Source: Clostridia bacterium (GTDB lineage Bacteria > Bacillota > Clostridia > UMGS1840). From it: 64,000 bases of DNA. The notes under the pieces were generated by a model. That model was not told the origin of the DNA and did no database searches. It saw only the letters and a program-made list of their open reading frames with translations. Positions 5,295 to 62,650 of this stretch are shown one piece after another (position 1 is the stretch's first letter; each line of letters starts with the position of its first letter). Both the position numbers and the translations under genes were made by a program. The stretch is taken from positions 62,001 to 126,000 of the forward strand of contig JAGBEY010000015.1 in assembly GCA_017936745.1 (NCBI GenBank), in the 5' to 3' direction.

Positions 5295-5972
5295 TTAAGA
5301 ATTTGCGATTTGGTCTACTACGTCCATCCCTTCAATCACTCTGCCGAATGCAGCATAATCGCCATCCAGATGAGGAGCATCTGCGTGCATAATAAAGAAC
5401 TGAGAGCCGGCAGAATCGGGATGCATTGCTCTCGCCATAGATAACACGCCTCTTTCGTGTTTTAAGTTGTTTTCAAACCCGTTGGAGGTAAATTCTCCTT
5501 TAATCTGATAGCCGGGGCCTCCGGTACCGGTTCCGTTGGGGCATCCGCCCTGAATTACAAAGCCGGGGATGTTTCTGTGGAAGGTCAAGCCGTTGTAAAA
5601 TCCTTTTTCAATCAAGGATACAAAGTTTTCTACGGTGATGGGTGCAACATCGGGATAAAGTTCAGCTTTAATCACACCACCGGACATCATTTCAATGGTC
5701 ACAACGGGTTTATTGGCGTCGGTTTTGTCAACAGTAACAGTTTTCATGGTAACAATAGATTTCATATCGGTTTCTCCTTTTGTTTCATTATTTTCAGGTT
5801 CTTTTGTGGGTATCTCTGTGGGTATCGGAGTTGCCTCCGGAGTAGCCTCTGGAGTAGCATACGGCACTTTTTTTGTGCCTTCATCGGATGTGGTAAAGGT
5901 AGTATTATTCGCTCCACAGCCGCTCAGAAGCAGAATTGATATTAACAATAACAAACTGAATTTTTTCATCAT
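5295..5972 (-). CDS. Cyclophilin-type peptidyl-prolyl isomerase lipoprotein
   Basis: A 225-residue exported foldase. Seen: a lipoprotein signal peptide with lipobox LLSGC (lipidated Cys19), a Pro/Glu/Thr-rich linker (about 35-70), then a compact cyclophilin domain with [45 protein letters not shown] and [17 protein letters not shown]. These carry the catalytic Arg (FHR) and the substrate-pocket residues. It probably helps fold secreted proteins on the outer face of the membrane. Start at the first of two adjacent ATG codons, with AGGAG seven bases upstream. Confidence 0.93.
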
Positions 5973-6037
5973 TCAGCGACTCCTTTCTTATTTTTCTCAC
6001 AGTCTATCACACCATTGTGAACGTCTTGTGATATTTT

Positions 6038-6526
6038 TTATTTTCCTGTGCTTCCAAAGCCACCGGTTCGCTCTCCCTTGGCACAATCATTATCTGCTTT
6101 TAAGAATTTTGTGAAAATTCCCTGCCCGATTTTATCCCCTTTTTTGATGGTAATGGCAAAAGGCATAAAATTATAAAATGCAAACATAATATGACCATCA
6201 TTATCCGGATTGGAATAATAATCACTGTCGATAATGCCAACAGAATTTGCTAAAATCAGTCCTTTTTTACCGGGGTTGGAGGAGCGATTATAAAGAGACA
6301 GCACCTCATCTTCTCCCATATACGCCTTAATTCCGGTTTTCACCAATGCCGGCTTAACAGGTTCTCCTGATACCACCTTTTCTAAAAGCTGACCGTAATA
6401 AGACGGAATTACAGTATCCTCAATGGCAAAAAAATCATAACCGGCACTGTTTTTAGTGGAGCGTTCAGGAAGCTGAATTTCCTGATTCAAAAAATCTTTA
6501 GCTACTTCAAACCCTCTTTGTTTCAT
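6038..6526 (-). CDS. dut: dUTP diphosphatase (trimeric dUTPase)
   Basis: Hydrolyses dUTP to dUMP and pyrophosphate, keeping uracil out of DNA and supplying dTMP synthesis. The five family motifs appear in order: STKNSAGYDFFA, NRSSNPGKKGL, NSVGIIDSDYYSN, GDKIGQGIF and the C-terminal arm RTGGFGSTGK. Length (162) suits the trimeric class, with a slightly longer segment between motifs 1 and 2. It is divergent from the spoIIA operon. Confidence 0.93.
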   Translation of the reverse strand: MKQRGFEVAKDFLNQEIQLPERSTKNSAGYDFFAIEDTVIPSYYGQLLEKVVSGEPVKPALVKTGIKAYMGEDEVLSLYNRSSNPGKKGLILANSVGIIDSDYYSNPDNDGHIMFAFYNFMPFAITIKKGDKIGQGIFTKFLKADNDCAKGERTGGFGSTGK

Positions 6527-47837: not shown

Positions 47838-49502
47838 TTAATTCTTCACTTCTTCAAGAGGTATTGGTTTGTAATCTCCATTGTGTGCAAGGGTTACATT
47901 GCCATCATCATCGAATATCTCGCCGTACTCACCGAATGGTGCGTTCATTACTATCACCAGGGCAAGCTCATTATTCTCCATATCAAGAACTATGATTTCT
48001 TTTATGAGAAGCCGTAGGTTTACATTGCTGATTGCACCTTCTGCTATGATTCCGTCAAGTATGTCGATGCTTTCCTTGATTTCCTTTTTACGCTTTTTAA
48101 CCGTCTGCTCCATATTCAGTATGTCTTGAATTTTAGTTTTTAGGTTTTCTATTTCGACCTTTCTCTTTTCAAGTATTCTGTCGTATGTAGCACGGTTTTG
48201 CATATCCCTGATTCTTTCTATCAGGATATTTTCCTGCTCAAGCTCAAGGTTTTCAATCATCGCTCGGTAATCCCTTATTTTCTTGTCGGTATTTCCTTTA
48301 TTCGATAACCACTTTTTAACCTCATCTTCTATGGCAAGCCAGTTATCCTGTTCCTTTGATTTCAGCCTTAACAATTCTTTATACACAAGGGCATCCAAGT
48401 CCTTTTCCTGAACTCTGTGGGATGTGCAGTAGCCTTTGTATCGGTGGTAGCCATTGCAGACATATTCTACTCTGTCAGGCTTGTCACCCCATTTCCTGAT
48501 TTTTGCGACAAAGGTGCATCCGCAGTCACCGCATTTTAGAAGCCCTGTGTATCTGTGGTACGGATTTCCCGAGCTTGCACGGACATTGGTTTCTTTCTTA
48601 CTTTCGATAAGATTTTGAACCTTGTCCCACACTTCTTTAGGGATAATCACAGGTGCATAGTTTTCGTGCCTGAACTGTTCTTCCTTTGGCACTTTCCTTC
48701 GTATCTTTTTTGCCTTGTCAGTTTCTTCAATATGGCATACGAGTGTGCCTGTGTAGAACTCATTCGTAAGCACTCGCTTTACTGCTGTCGGGTCCCATAG
48801 ATACCTGAATGTAATTGCAGGTTTGTTATAACCTTGATTTTTGTTGTTATAAAGCTTTTGATAGTATGACGGTGATTTCTTGCCGTCTTTATTTAGCTTT
48901 TCTGCAATGGCTTTGAAACCGAATCCGTCAAGGTACATCGCATAGATTTCTCTTACGATTTCAGCAGGCTCGTCCATAATTACGATTTCGTCTTTGAGCT
49001 TGTCCTTGTAATATCCCATAGGAGGCATATTGCAAACGCCCTTGTCTTTCTGTTTCTGACGATAACCGTATCTTACTTTCTTGCTTACATCTCTGGCATA
49101 CATATGGTTGATGAATTGATTCATATCCATACGGAATTCATCGTCCTCGTTGAAGCTGTCTGTGTTGTCGGTTACGCTTATAACCCTGATGTTGTGACTT
49201 CTTAAGTATTCGATGAACATTGCAGTTTGAATCTTTTCTCTGCCGAGTCTTGATAAGTCTTTTACAAGTACGACATCCATTCTATGCTCCGCAGCGGCTT
49301 GATAGATTTCCTCGATTCCGTTTCTCTCGAAGGTCATTCCGCTTACATTGTCATCGAATGATTCTCCTGCGAACTGATGTCCGTTCTTTTTGATGTAGTC
49401 CAGCAAAATTTGTCTTTGGTTCTTTAGTGAATTCATTTCCTTATCGTCATCTCTTGACAATCTGTAATAAATCCAAATTCTCCATGCTTGCATGATATTC
49501 AT
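47838..49502 (-). CDS. Large serine recombinase (integrase)
   Basis: 554 residues. Seen: an N-terminal resolvase-type catalytic domain with nucleophile S16 in YYRLSRDDD and the KDLSRLGREK helix, then a recombinase domain (about 165-280), a zinc ribbon LKCGDCGCTF ... YVCNGY ... GYCTSHR (about 335-385), and a long coiled coil (about 405-500). This is the phiC31/TndX-type architecture that catalyses site-specific integration and excision. RBS GGAG lies upstream. The direction toward the tRNA is typical for element ends. Confidence 0.94.
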   Translation of the reverse strand: MNIMQAWRIWIYYRLSRDDDKEMNSLKNQRQILLDYIKKNGHQFAGESFDDNVSGMTFERNGIEEIYQAAAEHRMDVVLVKDLSRLGREKIQTAMFIEYLRSHNIRVISVTDNTDSFNEDDEFRMDMNQFINHMYARDVSKKVRYGYRQKQKDKGVCNMPPMGYYKDKLKDEIVIMDEPAEIVREIYAMYLDGFGFKAIAEKLNKDGKKSPSYYQKLYNNKNQGYNKPAITFRYLWDPTAVKRVLTNEFYTGTLVCHIEETDKAKKIRRKVPKEEQFRHENYAPVIIPKEVWDKVQNLIESKKETNVRASSGNPYHRYTGLLKCGDCGCTFVAKIRKWGDKPDRVEYVCNGYHRYKGYCTSHRVQEKDLDALVYKELLRLKSKEQDNWLAIEDEVKKWLSNKGNTDKKIRDYRAMIENLELEQENILIERIRDMQNRATYDRILEKRKVEIENLKTKIQDILNMEQTVKKRKKEIKESIDILDGIIAEGAISNVNLRLLIKEIIVLDMENNELALVIVMNAPFGEYGEIFDDDGNVTLAHNGDYKPIPLEEVKN

Positions 49503-49755: not shown

Positions 49756-50197
49756 AAAATTTCCTCCTAACTTATTAGAATTTTGATCATTGAAGCATCA
49801 GAACGGATTTTAGCTAATCCTCACAGGAATTTCACCTTCGCTCATTCTTATGACCGACCGTCCAATTCAGTGACGAGTTCAAGACGGGAGTATCATTATC
49901 GGCAATAATGGTCTTGGCACAGCGGTTTGCTATTCTGCCTCGCTGCAGTAAGTTTATCGCTCGCTTCTGTTTGGAAGGTCATGGCGCCTTTGCAGCCTTG
50001 CTCGCATTATTGCTTATGTATCCTGATGCTTAATATTCGATTTTAGAAAATCCGTATTAACTTCAAATGGATTTTACAACTAAATTATAACAAGGCGTTG
50101 ACATTTCGTCAATTGTTTTGTATAATGTTTGTTGGAGTAATGTAAATTTTACAAAAACGAGCAAGTTTAGATTTTACAAAACAAGGCGGTGTATGTT
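49756..50197. other. 442-bp region without a confirmed gene, carrying inverted and direct repeats
   Basis: Seen: GAAGCATCAG (about 49784) and CTGATGCTT (about 50022) as an inverted pair at the two ends of a 240-bp G+C-richer block, so the block could fold back on itself. ATTTTACAA occurs three times (50071, 50146, 50171). A 28-codon minus-strand frame (49896-49982, MTFQTEASDK start) and an overlapping open frame ending HKNERR lie inside the block without ribosome sites. It may be a structured RNA, origin or att-associated element. Confidence 0.5.
50098..50126 (+). promoter_or_regulatory. Promoter with overlapping palindrome for the DUF6076 gene
   Basis: TTGACA (50098-50103), 17-bp spacer, TATAAT (50121-50126). 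TTGACATTTCGTCAA forms a palindrome (5-bp arms) covering the -35, a plausible operator. Confidence 0.8.
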
Positions 50198-51696: not shown

Positions 51697-52245
51697 TTAT
51701 TCCATTGTGCCGACTATTTTATTTATGTCGCCATCAGAGTCTACGACAATGGTTTTTGTTTTGCTCGGTACTACATATCCAAATCCTTCAATGTAGGCTT
51801 TATTTTTTTCTTCTATGATTTCATTTCGTATTTTTGTTTCCTCATCGGTGAGGTAGCAGGTGTCCTTGCTCATAATTTCATCATTCGGATTTATGGGTTC
51901 TGCCGAATTCTTTTCCCATTTCGCATATAGCACATCGGGCTTTGTAAATTTGAATGTTGTCACCTGATTCTGCTTTGTTCTCGGATCAGTGAACCATCCC
52001 TTGAATGTGTAACCGTATTTTGTTGGGATGTAACTCTCTAAGCTGATGCTTTCGCCATATCTTTTTGTTATTGGCCTGATAAAGCCACCACCATCCGATG
52101 CAAAGGTTAAGGTTACACTTCCTACTATTCCAAGTTCATTATCGAAGGCCACTCGGTATTTACTCAGCCACCAAGGTGCTGCCGATACAGTTGTTGATAG
52201 CAACATTGTCTTTGTCAACGCCATACATATTATTTTCTTTTTCAT
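51697..52245 (-). CDS. Secreted protein with an InlB B-repeat-like domain
   Basis: 182 residues from ATG 52245, with GGATGAG upstream; the open frame extends 13 codons further without support. Seen: a signal peptide (MKKKIICMALTKTMLLSTTVSA), then a Listeria-Bacteroides/InlB B-repeat (about 55-105, with KYGYTFKGWFTDPRT and VLYAKWEK). The C-terminus is acidic. It is exported; a role in adhesion or host interaction is possible but not shown. Confidence 0.75.
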   Translation of the reverse strand: MKKKIICMALTKTMLLSTTVSAAPWWLSKYRVAFDNELGIVGSVTLTFASDGGGFIRPITKRYGESISLESYIPTKYGYTFKGWFTDPRTKQNQVTTFKFTKPDVLYAKWEKNSAEPINPNDEIMSKDTCYLTDEETKIRNEIIEEKNKAYIEGFGYVVPSKTKTIVVDSDGDINKIVGTME

Positions 52246-52293
52246 AATCTCATCCTTTCGTTTTGGGCATAAAAATACCGACATACTCGAATT

Positions 52294-52654: not shown

Positions 52655-53725
52655 TCATTTTTCTAAACGCTCAATGATTCTAGAAATAACATTTTCCACA
52701 CTTGGATTATTACTGTCAGCAACTCTAGATAGAAATTCTCCTATGTTATTTCTTATTTCTTCTGCTTTCTTTAATTCTTCACTTTGTGCATATGTAGCGG
52801 ATGGTGGTAGATCTTTAATAGCATCGTTAAGTTCATTACAATAATCAGTCCAATATTTTATATAGTTCAAACGCTTGATACCATTATAAATATCTTTAGC
52901 ATCATCCCAAATCACATACATTGTTTTTTCGTCCCATTTGTCATCTTTTATTAATTCTATTACCTCGTATAAACATGCAACGGATTTAAGATAAGCATCA
53001 GAAATTACAAGAACAGCAAAATCCTCTTTGCGTATAGTTCTCATAAATTCAGATATACTTTTCCAATCACCAATATTGTTTTTGTCCCTTTTTACATCGC
53101 ACTTTCCATCGAGTTCATTTTCTATTTTATCAACAAAGTCTGAGCAACCCCGATTGTACGATATAAACATTGTTGGCACATTAACTTGGATTTCTTGCTG
53201 TATAGGCAAGTTGTCTTCCATAAATGCCTTGCCAGAAAGTTCAATTTCATATCCACCTGTTACATCTTCGGTAAATTTTGAAAAGTATCCTTGTTCATCT
53301 AAAATATTAAGAAAACGTCTGTATTTTGGAACGAAAGATATTCTTGTATCATCGTCATCCAAATAAACATATCCGTCTTTTTCAATATCTAATAAAATTT
53401 GCATGATTAATGCAACCAAAGCATTTTTGTCTTTCGTATCAAAAAAATCACTTAAATTACCCTTTAGTGTCGCAGCTTTAGATTCTATATCTTTAAATAG
53501 CTTTTCATCACGCCATCCATTAAAAGAATCCAATGTTTTTAAAAATTCATCAACAAATTGAGTTTGCTCCAATTTCGACAACTCATATTTCATATTTTCC
53601 TTCCAAGATACAAAAACTTCTGTATTGTATATCACATTAAAATTTGGAAAACTACCTCCACCTGATACATGGAATGATTTTTTTATTTCTGGTAATTGTG
53701 AAATCAATTTTAAAATTTTATACAT
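52655..53725 (-). CDS. TIR-domain protein, last gene of the interleaved RM operon
   Basis: 356 residues. Seen: a C-terminal TIR domain (about 184-310) starting PTMFISYNRGCSDFVDKIENEL, with DKNNIGDWKSISEFMRTIRKEDFAVLVISDAYLKSVACLYEV, where E254 lies at the catalytic-glutamate position of NADase TIR domains. The N-terminal 180 residues are unlike known sensors; about 100-170 looks like a winged helix. Bacterial TIR proteins often cleave NAD+ to stop phage growth. It lies 10 bp after hsdM, so it is cotranscribed. I do not see a cyclic-nucleotide-binding domain. Confidence 0.85.
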   Translation of the reverse strand: MYKILKLISQLPEIKKSFHVSGGGSFPNFNVIYNTEVFVSWKENMKYELSKLEQTQFVDEFLKTLDSFNGWRDEKLFKDIESKAATLKGNLSDFFDTKDKNALVALIMQILLDIEKDGYVYLDDDDTRISFVPKYRRFLNILDEQGYFSKFTEDVTGGYEIELSGKAFMEDNLPIQQEIQVNVPTMFISYNRGCSDFVDKIENELDGKCDVKRDKNNIGDWKSISEFMRTIRKEDFAVLVISDAYLKSVACLYEVIELIKDDKWDEKTMYVIWDDAKDIYNGIKRLNYIKYWTDYCNELNDAIKDLPPSATYAQSEELKKAEEIRNNIGEFLSRVADSNNPSVENVISRIIERLEK

Positions 53726-53735
53726 ATCTTTCTCC

Positions 53736-55211
53736 TTATTTCAATGCCTTTATAAGTTCTGAAAAGCTATCCATAGCACTTTCTAAATTTTCCATAATCT
53801 CTGATGCAAGCACATCAGGATCAGGAAGATTATCAAGATCTGCTAAAGATTTATCTTTAATCCAGAAAATATCAAGGCTTGTTTTATCACGGGAGATAAT
53901 ATCATCATATGAGAATTTTCTCCATCTTCCATCAGGGTTTTCTTCGCTGTATGTTTCGCATCTGCCTGCAAGATTTCCTGAATTATAGCATTTTACAAAC
54001 TCGTCCAAATCGGTTTGCTTAAGCGGATTCTTTTTAAGTGTGAAATGAATGTTGGTTCTAAAATCATAAATCCACACATTTTTTGTCTGAACATTAGGAC
54101 TTGCAGACTTCTTTTCAAAGAAAATAACATTTGCCTTTACACCCGGCTTATAGAATATACCAGTCGGAAGTCTTAAAATTGTGTGCAAATCACAAGTTTC
54201 AAGAAGTTTCTTACGGACAATCTCACCGCTGCCGCCTTCAAACAAAACATTATCGGGAACAACTACCGCAGCAGTTCCTCCAACCTTCAAAAGCGTATTT
54301 ATATGTTGAACGAAGTTAAGCTGTTTGTTTGAACCTGTTGCCCAGAAATCTTGACGGTTATATACTAAATCTTCGGTTTCCTGTTCGCCTTCTTCATTTT
54401 CAAATGTTAAAGATGACTTTTTACCGAAAGGCGGATTTGTCAACACATAATCATATCTTGTCCCAGGGTCTGATAGAAGCGAGTCATTTCTTGTTATCGG
54501 AACTTCGCCATTTAAGTCACCAACGCTGTGCAGAAATAAATTCATAAGGCACAAACGATAGGTCGCACGAACCAGTTCCCAACCATAAAATGTTTCAAAT
54601 TTAAGTTTTTTCTTTTCTTCTGCATTAAGGCTATTATTTGATTCAATATAACTTTTTGCAGAAAGTAAGAAACCACCCGAGCCACAGCACGGGTCGACAA
54701 TGGTCTTGCCCGGTTGTGGCTTCACGCACTCAACAATGGCATTGATTAAAGCACGAGGGGTAAAATACTGTCCTGCACCACTTTTTGTATCTTCGGCAAC
54801 ACGGGATAGAAGACTTTCATAAATCTCACCTTTAACATCTTCAGCCATGGACACCCAGTTTTCAGAGCCAATCATCTGAATAACTCGACTTAAAATTGCA
54901 GGCTTGGTAATTTTATTTTGTGCTTCGGTATAAATTTCCTGCAAGATACCACTTTTCTTTGCAAGAGTTTCCAAAATATATTTATATTTATCAGCAAGTT
55001 CAGCACCACTTAAAGAAGATAAACTCTCCCATGTGCAATCAGCAGGGATACCCAAATCGCGCTTATAAGGCGGTTTTGAATATTCATCAGCCATCTTTAA
55101 GAATATTAAATATGTAAGCTGCTCAAGGTAGTCGCTGTTGGAAACACCGTCATCCATCAGCACACCTGCCATTGACCATATTTTTTGTGATATATTAGAT
55201 TCAGCCATCAT
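53736..55211 (-). CDS. hsdM: Type I restriction-modification DNA methyltransferase subunit
   Basis: 491 residues. Seen: an N-terminal helical HsdM domain (SNISQKIWSMAGVLMDDG), SAM-binding motif I DPCCGSGGF (173-181), catalytic motif IV NPPF (259-262) for N6-adenine methylation, and a C-terminal HsdS-binding region. It methylates host sites with HsdS. It overlaps the cyclase-like gene by 11 bp. Confidence 0.95.
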   Translation of the reverse strand: MMAESNISQKIWSMAGVLMDDGVSNSDYLEQLTYLIFLKMADEYSKPPYKRDLGIPADCTWESLSSLSGAELADKYKYILETLAKKSGILQEIYTEAQNKITKPAILSRVIQMIGSENWVSMAEDVKGEIYESLLSRVAEDTKSGAGQYFTPRALINAIVECVKPQPGKTIVDPCCGSGGFLLSAKSYIESNNSLNAEEKKKLKFETFYGWELVRATYRLCLMNLFLHSVGDLNGEVPITRNDSLLSDPGTRYDYVLTNPPFGKKSSLTFENEEGEQETEDLVYNRQDFWATGSNKQLNFVQHINTLLKVGGTAAVVVPDNVLFEGGSGEIVRKKLLETCDLHTILRLPTGIFYKPGVKANVIFFEKKSASPNVQTKNVWIYDFRTNIHFTLKKNPLKQTDLDEFVKCYNSGNLAGRCETYSEENPDGRWRKFSYDDIISRDKTSLDIFWIKDKSLADLDNLPDPDVLASEIMENLESAMDSFSELIKALK

Positions 55212-56034
55212 TTTGCTCCTTTTTGTTTATTGTATTTGAAAAACATGTACTTAAGCTTTGAAAAAAATATTCATAAAGCCATTTGTATTTTTGTCTTATT
55301 CTTGCATTATTAATTTGCAATCCACTATAAACAAAGTCGGTTATCGTTTTAATTTTCTTTTCTGTCATATTAAGCGGCAACATTTCCAAAATGTTAAAAT
55401 AATTTACAAAATATGTTTTGTCTTCCGTCGATTGTTTTATAAACATTTCGATTTCTGTTTTACGATTATTCTCATTTTTTTCTTTGTTTTTGTATGTTAA
55501 AAGACTTTCATCTGCTGTTTTTTTACGAAAAAAATTACGGCATTTTAGGTCATCAATAATATCATCCGCTATAACCGTTCTCGGATATATTGCTGTTTCC
55601 GATTCTAATTTATATGCATCTATAAATGCAGGACCATACATAATATTATTTAATTTATAGAACTCACCCTTTGCAATGCCACCTCGAATCATAATTTTAT
55701 TCCTTAAAAAGGCATTATGAATGAAAGAGCACAAGTAAAGCAAAAAACTCAATCCCTCATCATTATCCGGTGCAGAAATAACTATGCTGTCAGACATAAT
55801 GGTAAATGTTGTTTTTTCGCATGTTTCTTTAGAAAAAATAAGCTTGGAAAATTTAGAGTCAAAATTAAATTTAAGTAATTCTACATCATTGAATATAGCT
55901 TTTATTTCTTCGCACGATAATTCTTTTTTGCTACACTTCTCTTTAAATCCTAAAATGTCTAAAAAAGCTATATATGTAATTTTATATTGATTTGGTTCAC
56001 ATAGTTTGCGTTCTACAAATTCTTCAATATTCAT
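55201..56034 (-). CDS. Class III nucleotidyl cyclase-like protein embedded in an RM operon
   Basis: 277 residues. Seen: FLDILGF with D26 (matching the first metal-binding Asp of class III cyclases, as in D-I-x-G-F), MSDSIVIS with D82 (second metal-binding position), RGGIAKG (117-123) and GPAFIDAYKLES (134-145), which match in order the core motifs of adenylate/guanylate-type cyclase folds. Two catalytic Asp are retained, so activity is plausible; the substrate base cannot be read. Cyclases of this fold (PycC) make cCMP or cUMP in Pycsar defence. It overlaps hsdS by ATGA and hsdM by 11 bp. I infer, not show, a signalling role with the TIR protein. Confidence 0.6.
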   Translation of the reverse strand: MNIEEFVERKLCEPNQYKITYIAFLDILGFKEKCSKKELSCEEIKAIFNDVELLKFNFDSKFSKLIFSKETCEKTTFTIMSDSIVISAPDNDEGLSFLLYLCSFIHNAFLRNKIMIRGGIAKGEFYKLNNIMYGPAFIDAYKLESETAIYPRTVIADDIIDDLKCRNFFRKKTADESLLTYKNKEKNENNRKTEIEMFIKQSTEDKTYFVNYFNILEMLPLNMTEKKIKTITDFVYSGLQINNARIRQKYKWLYEYFFQSLSTCFSNTINKKEQNDG

Positions 56035-57275
56035 ACTAAATTCCCTTCAAAGGCTTGTTTTAATATACTTTGTCTTAAACTTTCTGCTTTTTGCAATGAT
56101 TCATTAACTGTTTGCTCAATTTTATCACAAACAGATAATCGAGATTCAATTTCTGTTACAATATATTTTTGCTCGTCTATATGACAGTAAGGAATAATAA
56201 GATTTTCCAATGTAGTTAAATTGATATTTTTTTGAGCAGTAGCTGGAGCAAATGCTGATAATCTTATTTTTGAGGCTTCAATAAAATATCTAACATAATC
56301 TCTGTCAACAATATCTTCTTGTGGATCAAATCCCACTACACTATCAGGGAAACAAGCATCTATACCCAAAATACATGTTTCTGCTATGTTTGCAGCAATT
56401 GTAATACAAAGTGTTCCTTTTTTCCATAATTTACTTTGAGCTAAACCAAAATCTCCGTACATAGTGGAAAAAGATGTCAAGTATTTCTTTGCCGCTTTTA
56501 CATCTCCAGTTTGTACAAATGGATATTTTCCATCCTCAAACAGTTTTTTATCATTTCGAGGTCTATGCTTTGATTTGCCTCTACTTAATTCTCCAAGCTT
56601 ACTTAAATAAACATATTCCCATTCATTCGGAAGCGTTGGAAGTTCGACAACAAGGGTTTTATCGACAGTTTCTATGTTTACACCCTGCCTGTTATCATAA
56701 CTCCACTTTCCTTCAAATGCCTCTTTCAACACCGCCTGACGATAGATTTTGAGTTGTTCTTTGGTTTTATTTAGTTCTTCAACACCTTTATCAAGTTTTG
56801 AAAATAATTCTTCAATCTTAGCTACAATGCGTTGCTGCTCCTCTATAGATGGATTGGGGACTGGAATTTGTTTCAGAGCATTTTGCGTTAATTTCAATCG
56901 TGTTGTACCCGATACATAGCCATTATAATTAAAATAATTTAGATAATAACACAAAAATCTGTTGTTCGATTTTGATTTCAAAACATGTGCATGATTATTA
57001 ACCCATGTTTTCCCGCTTATAATGTATGACTTCTGTGCAAATGGGTTTAGGAATGGTGCACCATCTTCACCTAAAAGAACATATTCTCCATCCGTAATAT
57101 AATCATCTATATAACCAACCTGACCAGTTGCACCAAAATAAGGATATAGTTCTGATGGATTTTTTCCTGCTATTCTCTTTTGCCGTTCCTTTGCGTTTAT
57201 TGGGTTTCTTAACACATCACAGATTTCGGCTATTTCTTCTAATGGAAGTATGTTCCACTTACTGTCCGCCATCAT
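56031..57275 (-). CDS. hsdS: Type I restriction-modification specificity subunit
   Basis: 414 residues with two target-recognition domains separated by long helical spacers. Seen: TRD1 (about 1-140, ending in NPSIEEQQRIVAKIEELFSKLDKGVEELNKTKEQL) and TRD2 (about 205-375, followed by HIDEQKYIVTEIESRLSVCDKIEQTVNESLQKAESLRQSILKQAFEG). Two helices define the spacing between the half-sites of its recognition sequence. Start at the first of two ATGs. It overlaps the HNH gene by 17 bp. Confidence 0.93.
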   Translation of the reverse strand: MMADSKWNILPLEEIAEICDVLRNPINAKERQKRIAGKNPSELYPYFGATGQVGYIDDYITDGEYVLLGEDGAPFLNPFAQKSYIISGKTWVNNHAHVLKSKSNNRFLCYYLNYFNYNGYVSGTTRLKLTQNALKQIPVPNPSIEEQQRIVAKIEELFSKLDKGVEELNKTKEQLKIYRQAVLKEAFEGKWSYDNRQGVNIETVDKTLVVELPTLPNEWEYVYLSKLGELSRGKSKHRPRNDKKLFEDGKYPFVQTGDVKAAKKYLTSFSTMYGDFGLAQSKLWKKGTLCITIAANIAETCILGIDACFPDSVVGFDPQEDIVDRDYVRYFIEASKIRLSAFAPATAQKNINLTTLENLIIPYCHIDEQKYIVTEIESRLSVCDKIEQTVNESLQKAESLRQSILKQAFEGNLV

Positions 57276-58071
57276 TTTCTTTACTCCATTTCTTATTTTC
57301 TTCTACGCATTGCTTTATTTCTTCCTTTGAACGGTAATGCATTGGGAATATATCATTCATTTCTTTAATACAGAGCGGAATCTCAATGTTTGCAAGTTCG
57401 TCGTAATCACAATCCGAAAAAAATGTAATATCAACACCATCATATTCTCTATCCTTTATTGGATCAAAAATAAGAATAAATCCTAATGGATATGCTGTAA
57501 TTTCACTAACCGCCATTGATTGCACCTTATTATCATCTAGTTTTATAACTACTGACAATGGTGCATACTTTACCAAATTACTTTTTGTGAAATACATATT
57601 AAGTCTATATTTTGTTTTATCCAGTCCTTTTGCAGTTTTATCCAATACAAAATCTCTTAATGATTGAATTCTCTCATCCTCAATATTATTTATCGAGCAA
57701 AACATAGAAATAATTTGTTTTATAAACCGTAACGGATATATTTCCTTTATTCCTATAGCGTTAATATTTTCAGGAATAGTTTCACAAAAGGCTGCGTGCA
57801 TGATTTGAGAAATTTTAATATAGTCATTCCCATACCATGAACCTGTGTTGTTATTGCAGTCCTTGCATAACGAAAATTTTCCCATTCCTTGCTGCTGATT
57901 AGTATAGCGCAATCCCGAAGTATCCCACGGCATACGGTCATCATTCATCATTTTATCCCCTGTAACAGGTTTTGCTGGGGAAGCATTAAATGCCGCCCTC
58001 GGAGGAATGTGCTCAAAACTTAACTCACATTCTTTTCTGCATAATGCGCATTTACCAAAGCTTTTTGACAT
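57259..58071 (-). CDS. HNH-type zinc-binding protein
   Basis: 270 residues. Seen: CALCRK (C8, C11), LSFEHIPPRAAFN (E20-H21) and LCKDCNNNTGSWYGNDY (C69, C72, N73-N75), which together form a zinc-bound beta-beta-alpha metal (HNH) site of the McrA-like type. The 180-residue C-terminal part is unrecognised. Possibly a nuclease acting on invading DNA. Lies between the zinc-ribbon gene and hsdS in the same operon. Confidence 0.7.
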   Translation of the reverse strand: MSKSFGKCALCRKECELSFEHIPPRAAFNASPAKPVTGDKMMNDDRMPWDTSGLRYTNQQQGMGKFSLCKDCNNNTGSWYGNDYIKISQIMHAAFCETIPENINAIGIKEIYPLRFIKQIISMFCSINNIEDERIQSLRDFVLDKTAKGLDKTKYRLNMYFTKSNLVKYAPLSVVIKLDDNKVQSMAVSEITAYPLGFILIFDPIKDREYDGVDITFFSDCDYDELANIEIPLCIKEMNDIFPMHYRSKEEIKQCVEENKKWSKENDGGQ

Positions 58072-58099: not shown

Positions 58100-58513
58100 T
58101 TAAAATCTTCCTGGTCTATTCAGACCACTTAAAGCATTTAGACTTTTTTGAAAATAATCTTTTTTTGCTTTAACATCATACACACCTTTGTCTTTACAAC
58201 ACGGGCAATTATAGGTTCCTTGTTCTTGATCACAATGCAACTGCACTAATTTTTGAGAACTATCCCAGCAATTTGTGCAATACATCAAATTTGTATCATC
58301 TGTTAGTGTTAAGTACGGTTCTTGATGCCTAATTATCTTAGATTCAATATCTTTTATCTTCTTTAATTCCGCGTTCTCTATTGTCAGTCTTGATATTTCA
58401 TTTTGCATATCCAGTGCTTGTGAACTTAAATCTAATAGCTTTTGATATAATTCAATATTGTCAGCTTGCTGTACTACTTTTGCAACATCTTTTATTCCAT
58501 CATAAAGTCCCAT
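58100..58513 (-). CDS. Coiled-coil and zinc-ribbon small protein
   Basis: 137 residues. Seen: MGLYDGIKDVAKVVQQADNIELYQKLLDLSSQALDM, a predicted coiled coil (about 25-60), then a zinc-ribbon-like C-terminus with C79/C82, C94 and C103/C105/C106. Related proteins are common as accessory genes in Firmicutes islands. The coil suggests oligomerisation. Function unknown. Confidence 0.65.
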   Translation of the reverse strand: MGLYDGIKDVAKVVQQADNIELYQKLLDLSSQALDMQNEISRLTIENAELKKIKDIESKIIRHQEPYLTLTDDTNLMYCTNCWDSSQKLVQLHCDQEQGTYNCPCCKDKGVYDVKAKKDYFQKSLNALSGLNRPGRF

Positions 58514-58533: not shown

Positions 58534-59055
58534 TTATATAGCCATTGACAAATCAATTGCGGCTTTAGCAATTTGGATGATTGCTAAAATCAAACCGAAA
58601 ATTTTTGTAATAAATAAAATAATGTCAGTTTTCTTTTCTTCCTTCGATAATATTTTTCTTGTATGTGGTATTTTTAATATTGAATATACAATTTTTTGAA
58701 TTCCCGATAAAAATCCATATACACCAAAGAGAAGACAAACAAAACCAATTATATTGAATGCCCAATGCTTGCCAAACCAATACAAGGCAAACCATACACT
58801 AATAAACATTGCTCCCAAAACAGTATCGTCCAGGCCTATTATCCCAATTTTTGTTTTACCTGATTCTACCGCAAATCCGGCAATACCAAATACTATAAAT
58901 ATCCATTTAACAACTTCTGTAATCACCTTATTTCCAAAGTATACAGGCAAAAACTGCAGTATCAGTCCACAAACAACAAAAGCTAAAGCTAACGCATAAC
59001 CGTTAATTCTGCTATCTATTTCTTCACTAAAATATATTTTCTTTTCTTTAGCCAT
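58534..59055 (-). CDS. Multi-spanning membrane protein in the interleaved RM operon
   Basis: 173 residues from ATG 59055, which has AAAGGAG upstream; the open frame extends upstream without support. Seen: four or five membrane helices (about 19-38, 43-59, 72-90, 95-114, 140-165) with a short basic cytoplasmic loop (HTRKILSKEEKKTD). No known channel or transporter signature. Could be a membrane effector, given its place in a defence operon; function unknown. Confidence 0.7.
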   Translation of the reverse strand: MAKEKKIYFSEEIDSRINGYALALAFVVCGLILQFLPVYFGNKVITEVVKWIFIVFGIAGFAVESGKTKIGIIGLDDTVLGAMFISVWFALYWFGKHWAFNIIGFVCLLFGVYGFLSGIQKIVYSILKIPHTRKILSKEEKKTDIILFITKIFGLILAIIQIAKAAIDLSMAI

Positions 59056-59077
59056 AAAATCTCCTTTACGCCACCAT

Positions 59078-59857
59078 TTAAACAGATAAATTTTTTCTAA
59101 TTGAATAGTATTGTGGTCGTGCATTAAAACAAGCTGCAATCGGATCAACTAACAATTTCTCAATGTTGCCTTGCAGTTTATTCGCATCGTCTTGACTTAA
59201 CTCAAAGTTATATTTTTTTACAAATTCAGTGTTATCATATTTTGTTATTAGTTCAACTTCATATTTACCGGTTTTCCAAAAACAGAATTCATATAATTTA
59301 ACCTTTGAATCAGAATATTCAGTTGTCGCGTGCGCCTGCCTATCTGCTTCAATTAGTGTTATTCCTTGTTGGTTCAAAATAGAATTTTCTGCATTGTATA
59401 ACGGTTGTATGGCTATTGCAATTTCCTCGCTAATGTTTGTTTTTTCATCTGTAAACTCGATAAATGCAGGTGTAAGAGAATCTGCATTAGCACTAAAAGG
59501 ATGCGCTGTTTCAAAGGAATGTTCATATTGGCCGCCTATCTCTTTCACTGTCGGTGAAGGAAAAGTTGACCATGTCAAATTTAACATCGCATTGTCAGCT
59601 TTTCTGATTACTTTTGCACTAATATTTTTTATAGTAGCAGTTTTGTTATCAGCTTTGTATACACCACCCAGGTTTATATATGAGCCACTTCTATTGAAAT
59701 AAATGGTGATCACATCTGAAATTAAAAAGTCAATTTTTAAGCGTTTAAACCATTTCTCATATAACCACTTAATAAAAGGTATTATCAAAGCTAATACAGC
59801 TAAAATGATACCAATTAACTCATAAAAAGTCATAGGTGTCTTAAAATCAATTGTCAT
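59078..59857 (-). CDS. Single-span membrane-anchored protein of unknown function
   Basis: 259 residues. Seen: one N-terminal membrane helix (about 10-33) followed by basic KWLYEKWFKRLK, then a 220-residue beta-rich domain, probably cytoplasmic by positive-inside rule. No recognised motif. Located 15 bp after hsdR and 22 bp before the next membrane protein, so the two may act together. Confidence 0.65.
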   Translation of the reverse strand: MTIDFKTPMTFYELIGIILAVLALIIPFIKWLYEKWFKRLKIDFLISDVITIYFNRSGSYINLGGVYKADNKTATIKNISAKVIRKADNAMLNLTWSTFPSPTVKEIGGQYEHSFETAHPFSANADSLTPAFIEFTDEKTNISEEIAIAIQPLYNAENSILNQQGITLIEADRQAHATTEYSDSKVKLYEFCFWKTGKYEVELITKYDNTEFVKKYNFELSQDDANKLQGNIEKLLVDPIAACFNARPQYYSIRKNLSV

Positions 59858-59872
59858 TTGTATTTCCCTCCT

Positions 59873-62650
59873 TTACGCCACCAATGCATAATTCATTTCT
59901 TCCAAAATTTGTTCGTACTCATCACCGAAAAGCTGATAGAATTTGCCCAAGCCGCCTTTTTTGTCAAAAGGAGTAAGGTCTAAATCATCAGCTTCAATAT
60001 GTGCAGAAACTGCAATATGGTCACGAATCATACGAAGCCATTCCATCTGTTCCTCTGTAAACTGACCATGACCGGAGTTTTTATTAAATACCCAAGTCTG
60101 GAATTTCAAGTTTACTTCAGCAGAGAAGATGTTAAGGTTATCAATCTGACCAAGCTCATAGCGAATAAGCGAAACAATGTCTGCAAGCTTGTCCTCAACA
60201 CGCTTTGCTTTCACCTTGTCTTTATCCTTAACCTCATAAGCATACCAAAGTTTTGACACAGAAAGTCTATAAGGCGGTTTTTGTATTGCCTCATAAAGCT
60301 CGTCAATCATTTGGAATGTGAGAGGTCTCATTTTATAGATTTGATTATAAATAATTGAAAGTGCTGTGATTTCATCCTTATTATCTTCAATGAACTGGCG
60401 GAAAGTGCTTATCGTGCTGTCTGCTTTTCCGTCCTGTGCAGAATCCCATCCGGCAAAAGTAACAGTGTCAATATTGATATTATCTATAATCTGATCGTGT
60501 GATTTCTTGGTTTTATCAAGATAATCACGAAGCTTCGGATCATAAATAGGCTCAACTGCTACATCAATCAAAACTTGCTGCGCCTCTGTTTTTTGTTCTT
60601 CCGTTGGCTCTGTGCCATCGGGCAAATTGAATTTTTCTACAGCAATTTCAGTAATTTTATCTTCATCAAAAGCATTGAGCATATTTGCAGAAATTTCTGT
60701 TAGAGTTTTTCCACAGATTTCTGCAACCTGCTCTTTTTCTTTTGGTGTAAATATTTTATCAAGTTTTAATACTCTGCTTGCAAGAGATGTCAATGTATCA
60801 TCATCGTGATTTCCGAGAGCAACACTCATCATTAAATCTTTTAATGATACATAGGGTTTTCTTTCAAGCTGTCTTGATGTGGTTTTCTGAGATTTTGTAA
60901 CACCTACTGCATCCACAAGCACATAGCCAAGTTTCTGTGTTGTTGCGGACGGGGTAACACTTTGCAGTCCGTCTTTCGAAAGAGTTCTTGTAGCTCTGCC
61001 TTTCATCTGTTCAAAGTAATTAGCACTGCGAACATCACGCATGAACACAAGGCACTCGATAGGTTTAACATCTGTGCCCGTTGCAATCATATCAACCGTT
61101 ACGGCGATACGAGGATAGTAGTCATTTCTAAACGCAGAAAGAACACTCTTGGGATCTTCCTCAGAGCCATAGGTTACTTTTTTACAGAATTCATTACCTT
61201 CGCCAAATTCCTCACGGACAATTTTAATGATATCGTCTGCGTGGCTATCGGTTTTAGCAAATATAAGTGTTTTTGGAAGTTCCCATTTCTTTGTTGTAGG
61301 GTTAATTCTTTCGGGGAACATCTCTGTTTGTGCTTTTTCTTTAAATGCTTTTATAACATTTCTTATCTGTGATGGGTTAACAACATCACGGTCAAGTCTT
61401 GAAGGTGCATAGTTCACATCTTCGTCAAGCTGTTCCCAACGCTTCTTTCTCGAAAGTCTGTCACGCTTTTCTACAACCTGTTTTAATATAACTCCGCCTT
61501 TTGTAGTTATATCAGTTTCGATTAAATATGTACCGTCACGACCAACATTAACACCCTCAATAACAGCCTGCTCGTGTGTGTATTCACTTACAACATTCTC
61601 GTTAAAGAAACCGAAAGTTCTCTTATCAGGTGTTGCAGTAAGACCGATTAAGAAAGCATCAAAATAGTCAAGCACCTGTTGCCATAGATTGTATATAGAA
61701 CGATGACATTCATCAATGATAATAAAGTCAAAGAATTCAATCGGATATTTTTCGTTATAAACAACCTCTTTTGGCTTGCCATTCATTTGCTTTTCTGTTA
61801 AATGTTCATCCTCTAATGACTCATCAAGTTCTTCACCACGTAGGATAGAATACATCCTCTGTATGGTGCTTATACATACATGTGTGCTTTCGGGAATAAA
61901 GGATTTATTTAGTCTGCAAACATTATATAATTCAGGAAAAAGTCTTGCATCATCATAAGGCTTGTATTTCTTGAATTCTTCTTCAGCCTGTTCGCCAAGG
62001 TTCTTTGTATCAACCAAAAACAGAACTCTTTTTGCTTTTGCACAACTTAAAAGTCTGTATGTATTTGTAATGGCAGTGTATGTTTTACCTGCACCTGTTG
62101 CCATTTGAACAACAGCACGGGGACGGTTTTCTGCAAAAGATTTTTCAAGGTTAAGGATAGCCTTTACCTGACAATCCCTAAAACCTTCTTTCGGTAATTC
62201 AGGAAATGCTTTCAAACGATTGCGGAGAGTTGTTTCACTTTTCATCCATTCGAGCAATGTTTCAGGGCGGTGAAAAGTAAAGACTTCTCTTGAACGAGCC
62301 TTTTCATCATCATAATCACAGAAATGTGTAATCAAATCAGTCGCCTCATAAGCAAAGCGGATATGTGTTTTTGATTTGATGAATTTCAGATCGCTTTCTA
62401 TATATCTTTTAGACTGTTCTGCAACAGATGTTAAGCTTTCTGCAGCTTGTGTCTTCTTCGCTTCAATTACACCGCAAGGGATTTTATTTACAAAAATAAG
62501 ATAGTCAACGGGACCACTGCTTGTAGGATATTCACGCACAACAACGCCAAGCGATGCCGCAGGATTAAATTCCGCAAAATCCTGAACTACATAGCCTGAT
62601 TCTGTAAGTTTTCTATCTATTTGTATTCTTGCTTTTGTTTCGGGTGTCAT
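59873..62650 (-). CDS. hsdR: Type I restriction endonuclease subunit HsdR
   Basis: 925 residues. Seen: an N-terminal nuclease (PD-D/ExK type) with D49 and E63-x-K65 in FVNKIPCGVIEAKKTQ, superfamily 2 helicase motifs including Walker A ATGAGKT (184-190), DECH box (313-316), and further motifs (GLTATPDKR, MIATGTDV, QMKGRATR) in the translocase core. The C-terminus (from about 650) resembles the EcoEI R C-terminal region. It cuts unmodified DNA after ATP-driven translocation, with HsdM and HsdS. Confidence 0.95.
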   Translation of the reverse strand: MTPETKARIQIDRKLTESGYVVQDFAEFNPAASLGVVVREYPTSSGPVDYLIFVNKIPCGVIEAKKTQAAESLTSVAEQSKRYIESDLKFIKSKTHIRFAYEATDLITHFCDYDDEKARSREVFTFHRPETLLEWMKSETTLRNRLKAFPELPKEGFRDCQVKAILNLEKSFAENRPRAVVQMATGAGKTYTAITNTYRLLSCAKAKRVLFLVDTKNLGEQAEEEFKKYKPYDDARLFPELYNVCRLNKSFIPESTHVCISTIQRMYSILRGEELDESLEDEHLTEKQMNGKPKEVVYNEKYPIEFFDFIIIDECHRSIYNLWQQVLDYFDAFLIGLTATPDKRTFGFFNENVVSEYTHEQAVIEGVNVGRDGTYLIETDITTKGGVILKQVVEKRDRLSRKKRWEQLDEDVNYAPSRLDRDVVNPSQIRNVIKAFKEKAQTEMFPERINPTTKKWELPKTLIFAKTDSHADDIIKIVREEFGEGNEFCKKVTYGSEEDPKSVLSAFRNDYYPRIAVTVDMIATGTDVKPIECLVFMRDVRSANYFEQMKGRATRTLSKDGLQSVTPSATTQKLGYVLVDAVGVTKSQKTTSRQLERKPYVSLKDLMMSVALGNHDDDTLTSLASRVLKLDKIFTPKEKEQVAEICGKTLTEISANMLNAFDEDKITEIAVEKFNLPDGTEPTEEQKTEAQQVLIDVAVEPIYDPKLRDYLDKTKKSHDQIIDNINIDTVTFAGWDSAQDGKADSTISTFRQFIEDNKDEITALSIIYNQIYKMRPLTFQMIDELYEAIQKPPYRLSVSKLWYAYEVKDKDKVKAKRVEDKLADIVSLIRYELGQIDNLNIFSAEVNLKFQTWVFNKNSGHGQFTEEQMEWLRMIRDHIAVSAHIEADDLDLTPFDKKGGLGKFYQLFGDEYEQILEEMNYALVA

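Follow-up and report, generated by a model that had tools for sequence, protein, structure and literature searches.

A predicted class III cyclase-fold protein encoded by interchangeable cargo of the hsdS–hsdM slot in type I restriction–modification operons

The DNA analysed here (the window) is a stretch of 64,000 nt from a Clostridia bacterium (UMGS1840; contig JAGBEY010000015.1, positions 62,001 to 126,000). Its minus strand carries a type I restriction–modification (RM) operon whose first hsd gene, hsdR (59873..62650), encodes the restriction subunit (ResIII, 9.8e-39; EcoEI_R_C, 1.7e-38). Four accessory ORFs on the same strand follow: 59078..59857, with an N-terminal hydrophobic stretch, and the membrane-protein-like 58534..59061 (both from the ORF list and domain search), then a small ORF at 58100..58513 (from the ORF list) and finally 57259..58071, with a weak HNH_5-like start (E = 0.048) and a weak PADLOC match to PDC-M02A (0.0013). 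Next come hsdS, the gene of the specificity subunit (56031..57275; Methylase_S, 6.8e-34), the gene studied here, which we call CYC (55201..56034), and hsdM, encoding the methyltransferase subunit (53736..55211; N6_Mtase, 2.4e-70; HsdM_N, 1e-11). Located 10 bp past hsdM is a minus-strand gene for a TIR-domain protein (52655..53725; TIR_2, 1e-10). The product of the small ORF 58100..58513 has a relative (26% identity) encoded upstream of the CYC gene of another locus, L155 (3362-3661).

CYC is an ORF of 277 codons with an ATG start. It lies inside the RM operon, co-directional with its neighbours, and is joined to both of them by start/stop overlaps. At its start it shares 4 bp with hsdS (ATGA, 56031-56034) and at its end 11 bp with hsdM (55201-55211). 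Both figures, and the embedding of the gene between hsdS and hsdM, had been given in an earlier note on this DNA and were reproduced when we read them from the sequence; the arrangement moreover recurs in other loci (see below). We describe CYC as a class III cyclase-fold gene on the basis of database matches, an AlphaFold (AF2) model, Foldseek comparisons and residue conservation.

The CYC product matched PHROG 23933 (E = 8.5e-30) and PHROG 21097 (5.3e-12). Since the function of both is listed as unknown, PHROG membership by itself explains nothing. Searches of Pfam, NCBIfam and PADLOC gave no relevant match to CYC, and Pfam Guanylate_cyc (PF00211) matched 1 of 22 relatives (at 0.0036) and not the window protein. 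No match came from a direct tblastn of CYC against phages or from scanning viral and genome contigs with the single protein; relatives surfaced only when alignments were used. The family found in this way is dispersed over Clostridia genomes, plasmids, IMG/VR contigs and many phyla, at ≈ 20-50% identity, and most of its members are free-standing genes on plasmids, viral contigs and chromosomes.

Conservation was counted over 131 non-identical relatives (≈ 20-30% identity). Asp26, in FLDILGF, was Asp in all 126 aligned rows, a count that is partly search-biased because the seed for many relatives contained the D26 motif; D82, R117 and G118 are unaffected by this. Asp82, in MSDS, was invariant (128/128), as was G118 (130/130), and R117 was kept in 123 of 130 rows. 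K249 and W252 were also common, and P151-R152 was conserved as well. The two aspartates had been proposed earlier to be the metal-binding pair of a cyclase, followed by RGGIAKG and a GPAFIDAYKLE-like segment. All four elements are present in that order, the latter two at residues 117-123 and 134-144, and the conservation counts show that they are no coincidence.

Structure prediction supported the suggestion of a class III cyclase-like protein, in that the predicted fold has the cyclase core. AlphaFold models were obtained from a 22-row alignment (pLDDT 81.6, pTM 0.81) and from a 65-row alignment (pLDDT 87.4, pTM 0.86). They show beta1, helices, a beta2-beta3 hairpin, a helix, beta4-beta5, a helix and beta6, which is the class III cyclase order. 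In a Foldseek search of the PDB with either model, the best 50 matches were all class III cyclases (probability 0.99-1.00). The target TM reached 0.63; scored over the whole query, TM stayed low (0.3-0.4), partly owing to the last 100 residues of CYC, which have little counterpart. At the sequence level, a 13-row CYC profile gave chance matches only against PDB sequences. A 65-row profile gave five matches, all to class III cyclases and each weak (E 0.2-1.4), with the D, D, RxGIxxG and GxxxxxAxxxE motifs all aligned in the same order.

D26 and D82 fit the class III pattern of two metal-binding aspartates on beta1 and on the beta2-beta3 turn. The canonical motifs of class III cyclases are RxGIxxG and GxxVNxAxRLE, and the VNxAxR part of the latter carries the transition-state Asn and Arg. 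In CYC, RGGIAKG fits the first motif and GPAFIDAYKLE has the spacing of the second. Of the 131 relatives, only 6 have the Asn (column 138) and only 7 have the Arg (column 142); the window protein has I138 and K142. This indicates that the metal site has been kept and the canonical transition-state pair lost. Compared with Ma1120, Rv1900c, Rv1264, CyaC and soluble guanylate cyclase, CYC is alike in predicted fold and strand/helix order, in the two metal aspartates, in the RxGIxxG motif and in the spacing of GxxxxxAxxxE, but differs in lacking both a Guanylate_cyc match and the Asn and Arg of VNxAxR, and in having an extra C-terminal helical part with the conserved K249 and W252. From the models, we conclude that CYC is predicted to have a divergent class III nucleotidyl-cyclase fold with both metal aspartates.

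The likeness to PycC, the pyrimidine cyclase of Pycsar, went less far. CYC and PycC share the class III fold, the metal aspartates, a defence setting and a TIR gene in the operon. The distance between the aspartates is 44 residues in both EaPycC (D102/D146) and AnPycC (D62/D106) (PMC11224242), in contrast to 56 in CYC (42-62 across the CYC family), and CYC is unlike PycC in having no fixed receptor gene. PycC chains ranked 41 and 43 in the Foldseek search with the 22-row model and fell outside the best 50 with the better, 65-row model. Of the comparison with PycC and adenylate cyclases that the earlier note had called for, the class III fold stood, and PycC was not among the best structural matches. 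A PADLOC scan of CYC at E ≤ 10 gave no match, in a library that may lack a PycC model.

Searches with the three hsd genes of the window located the order hsdR-hsdS-CYC-hsdM, or as much of it as the sequence covered, in six further loci, counting a Fibrobacter pair as one. The hsdS-CYC-hsdM arrangement was seen in Ruminococcaceae (L077), Oscillospiraceae (L089), Fibrobacter (L090 and L100, the pair, with nearly the same CYC), Ruminococcus (L104 and L107) and an IMG/VR contig with broken RM genes (L023). CYC occupied other positions beside RM genes in about six more loci (L123/L121, L136, L086, L143, L103 and L116). In type I systems it lay between hsdS and hsdR (L123/L121) or immediately ahead of hsdR (L136); elsewhere it preceded an hsdM (L086), stood behind a type II methyltransferase gene (L103) or shared 7 bp with the gene of a type IIG-like enzyme (L143). 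Overall, in 15 of 129 family loci the gene right next to CYC was an RM gene on the same strand, compared with 9 of 872 controls, which were non-RM genes further off within the same loci (p = 1e-8); as the genome scan was seed-biased toward the window's own clade, we recomputed the enrichment without the window's slot, and it persisted (8/122 versus 9/872, p = 4e-4). A chance neighbourhood of CYC and RM genes was ruled out by the 15/129 versus 9/872 comparison. Most family members are nevertheless not adjacent to RM genes, and few touched them in evenly drawn samples of 391 (class) and 399 (phylum) genomes. Coupling to RM can therefore not be essential for the function of the protein.

Two of these loci showed additional features. 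In L089, a proteasome-subunit-like gene (5438-6046; PF00227, 4.7e-6) shares the hsdS–hsdM slot with CYC. In L023 (200-4486), hsdM is broken after ≈ 173 codons and followed ≈ 0.5 kb later by a serine recombinase gene. The hsdR and hsdS of this locus are truncated too, while CYC is intact.

The RM system, in turn, does not need CYC, since in an hsdM-anchored sample of this hsdM subfamily the gene was absent from all 14 loci other than that of the window. L182-L185 and the IMG/VR loci of the subfamily lack it. The closest RM relative, L181, has an hsdM 93% and an hsdR 87% identical to those of the window. Its hsdS–hsdM slot holds a different ORF of 199 aa, which shares 8 bp with hsdM; the hsdR–hsdS interval of L181 contains a DUF2971 gene and another ORF instead of the four of the window. 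A different kind of evidence came from L077 (7906-9895), which has two tandem CYC genes that are not sisters in the tree. The sequence between them contains 62 nt copied from the start of hsdM (92%) and, after these, 63 nt copied from the end of hsdS (86%), which we interpret as the scar of two joined hsdS-CYC-hsdM cassettes. The GC content of CYC was 0.28-0.35 regardless of that of hsdM (0.38-0.57). In the CYC tree, a quick tree without bootstrap, the RM label required at least five changes on starred, well-supported branches; joint inheritance of CYC and RM from one ancestor was rejected on this count. CYC is thus interchangeable cargo of a slot in type I RM operons and not a subunit of the RM enzyme. 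Homologous recombination within the two conserved flanks, the 3' end of hsdS and the 5' end of hsdM, probably brings about the exchange.

Embedded accessory genes of this kind have precedents. The gene for PrrC lies within EcoprrI, a type IC operon; the protein stays latent in the RM complex and is freed when phage T4 inhibits restriction (PMC3874165, PMC12707154). DarTG2 is embedded between hsdS and hsdR in the type I RM system of the RptR island (PMC12255303). Both are defence accessories, as CYC would be, and both share with it the position within a type I RM operon. PrrC is an anticodon nuclease and DarTG2 a toxin–antitoxin pair, whereas CYC is a predicted cyclase-fold protein and lies between hsdS and hsdM.

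Our preferred explanation, which we put forward tentatively, is that CYC is an anti-phage accessory that uses metal–nucleotide chemistry, travels as cargo of the RM slot, is held inactive by the intact RM system and is released by phage. The start/stop overlaps would couple its reading frame to hsdS and hsdM, and alternative genes would enter the same interval by homologous recombination in the conserved flanks. The protein would carry out a metal-dependent reaction on nucleotides, of the cyclase type or related to it, with non-canonical transition-state residues. The computations themselves show the predicted fold, the metal aspartates, the recurrent embedding and the exchange of cargo; the catalysis and the anti-phage role are inferred. 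The intact RM complex, with which CYC would be co-expressed, would keep it inactive, and a phage-imposed block of restriction would release or activate it, much as for PrrC in EcoprrI. That CYC perhaps guards the RM complex is the least certain part of the proposal, a guess for which PrrC is the precedent. The free-standing relatives on viral contigs and plasmids imply that the protein can also work without RM.

A serious though doubtful alternative is that CYC is an independent passenger, a free-standing single-gene accessory, for defence or another purpose, that has no functional link to the RM enzyme and only profits from the frequent recombination and the promoter that the RM slot offers. 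That most of its relatives stand alone, that L181 does without it and that its neighbours vary all fit this explanation. Against it, the RM enrichment that persists outside the window's slot and the start/stop overlaps at several loci suggest tuned co-expression.

We consider it rather unlikely that CYC has a re-invented active site, in which D26 and D82 would act with, for example, R117, R152 and K249 to make an unconventional nucleotide product or to destroy nucleotides, switched by the state of the RM system. Also unlikely is a non-catalytic role, in which CYC would be a cyclase-fold nucleotide sensor that binds HsdS or HsdM and tunes restriction versus modification. The loss of the Asn/Arg pair, the coupling of the CYC frame to hsdS and hsdM and the lack of a cyclic nucleotide receptor in the host genome would all suit such a regulatory subunit. 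However, the metal aspartates are invariant even in very divergent members of the family, among them free-standing ones, which argues for retained metal chemistry and not for a dead scaffold.

It had also been suggested that CYC is a signalling cyclase that could tie the RM system to a second messenger. This was not upheld: the Asn/Arg pair is lost, PycC ranked poorly, and there was neither a cyclic nucleotide (cNMP)-binding domain in the host nor a constant receptor or effector beside CYC. The host genome (92% complete) contained no match to the cNMP-binding domain (PF00027) in a search that was positive in 10 of 14 control genomes, and no PF00211 cyclase. The gene after hsdM varied from locus to locus, being a TIR gene in the window, genes for a KAP NTPase and Fic in L090, an ORF of unknown function in L100, GmrSD_N in L104 and AAA_15 in L107, and no constant partner of CYC emerged across the compared loci. 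A dedicated second-messenger pathway for CYC is thus not supported.

The same data bear on the TIR gene. We give little credence to a Pycsar-like pair in which a cyclic nucleotide made by CYC would activate the TIR protein, despite the place of the TIR gene directly after hsdM in the same operon and the pairing of PycC with PycTIR in Pycsar (PMC11224242). In Pycsar, the cyclase gene neighbours either a PycTM gene or that of a receptor-effector carrying a cNMP-binding domain (PycTIR). The TIR protein of the window has no recognised cNMP-binding domain and the partners are inconstant, differing even between the Fibrobacter loci L090 and L100, whose CYC genes are almost alike, which makes a Pycsar-type pair unlikely; PycC structures were also not among the best Foldseek matches. 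As the main reading, Pycsar with the TIR gene was rejected for want of a constant partner. That CYC acts as an ordinary adenylate or guanylate cyclase and signals to a CRP- or CNBD-type host receptor is barely tenable, since only the predicted class III fold speaks for it, and the missing catalytic Asn and Arg and the lack of PF00027 in the host speak against it.

The uncharacterised N-terminal module of the TIR protein recurs in a TIR protein of L188 (5530-6714), where the stretch read contained no RM gene. In L187, a distant TIR protein comes after hsdM-hsdS and a small ORF. Viral contigs yielded no relatives of the window TIR protein.

In the literature that we searched, we found no description of the CYC family in an RM setting. 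If active, CYC would add to immunity a cyclase-type branch that lacks the known receptors, and it would guard restriction as PrrC does, by nucleotide-based means. Even if it is inactive, the hsdS–hsdM interval is a concrete, repeatedly used cargo slot with a recombination scar, and it offers a direct route to mining new embedded defence genes.

Three features near the operon were observed in addition. On the same contig, ≈ 21 kb past the window, an ORF with a SAVED domain (G000:C9:147221-147622, L195; PF18145, 33.3 bits, above the cut-off) is possibly a CBASS-type effector. Within the window, a pemK RNA (Rfam RF02913, 58.5 bits) is located at 49821-49899 on the minus strand, upstream of a serine recombinase gene (47838-49502). 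The minus-strand ORF at 51697-52284 encodes a secreted-looking protein in which a repeat of the Listeria-Bacteroides type (GYTFKGWFTD...LYAKW) was recognised by eye.
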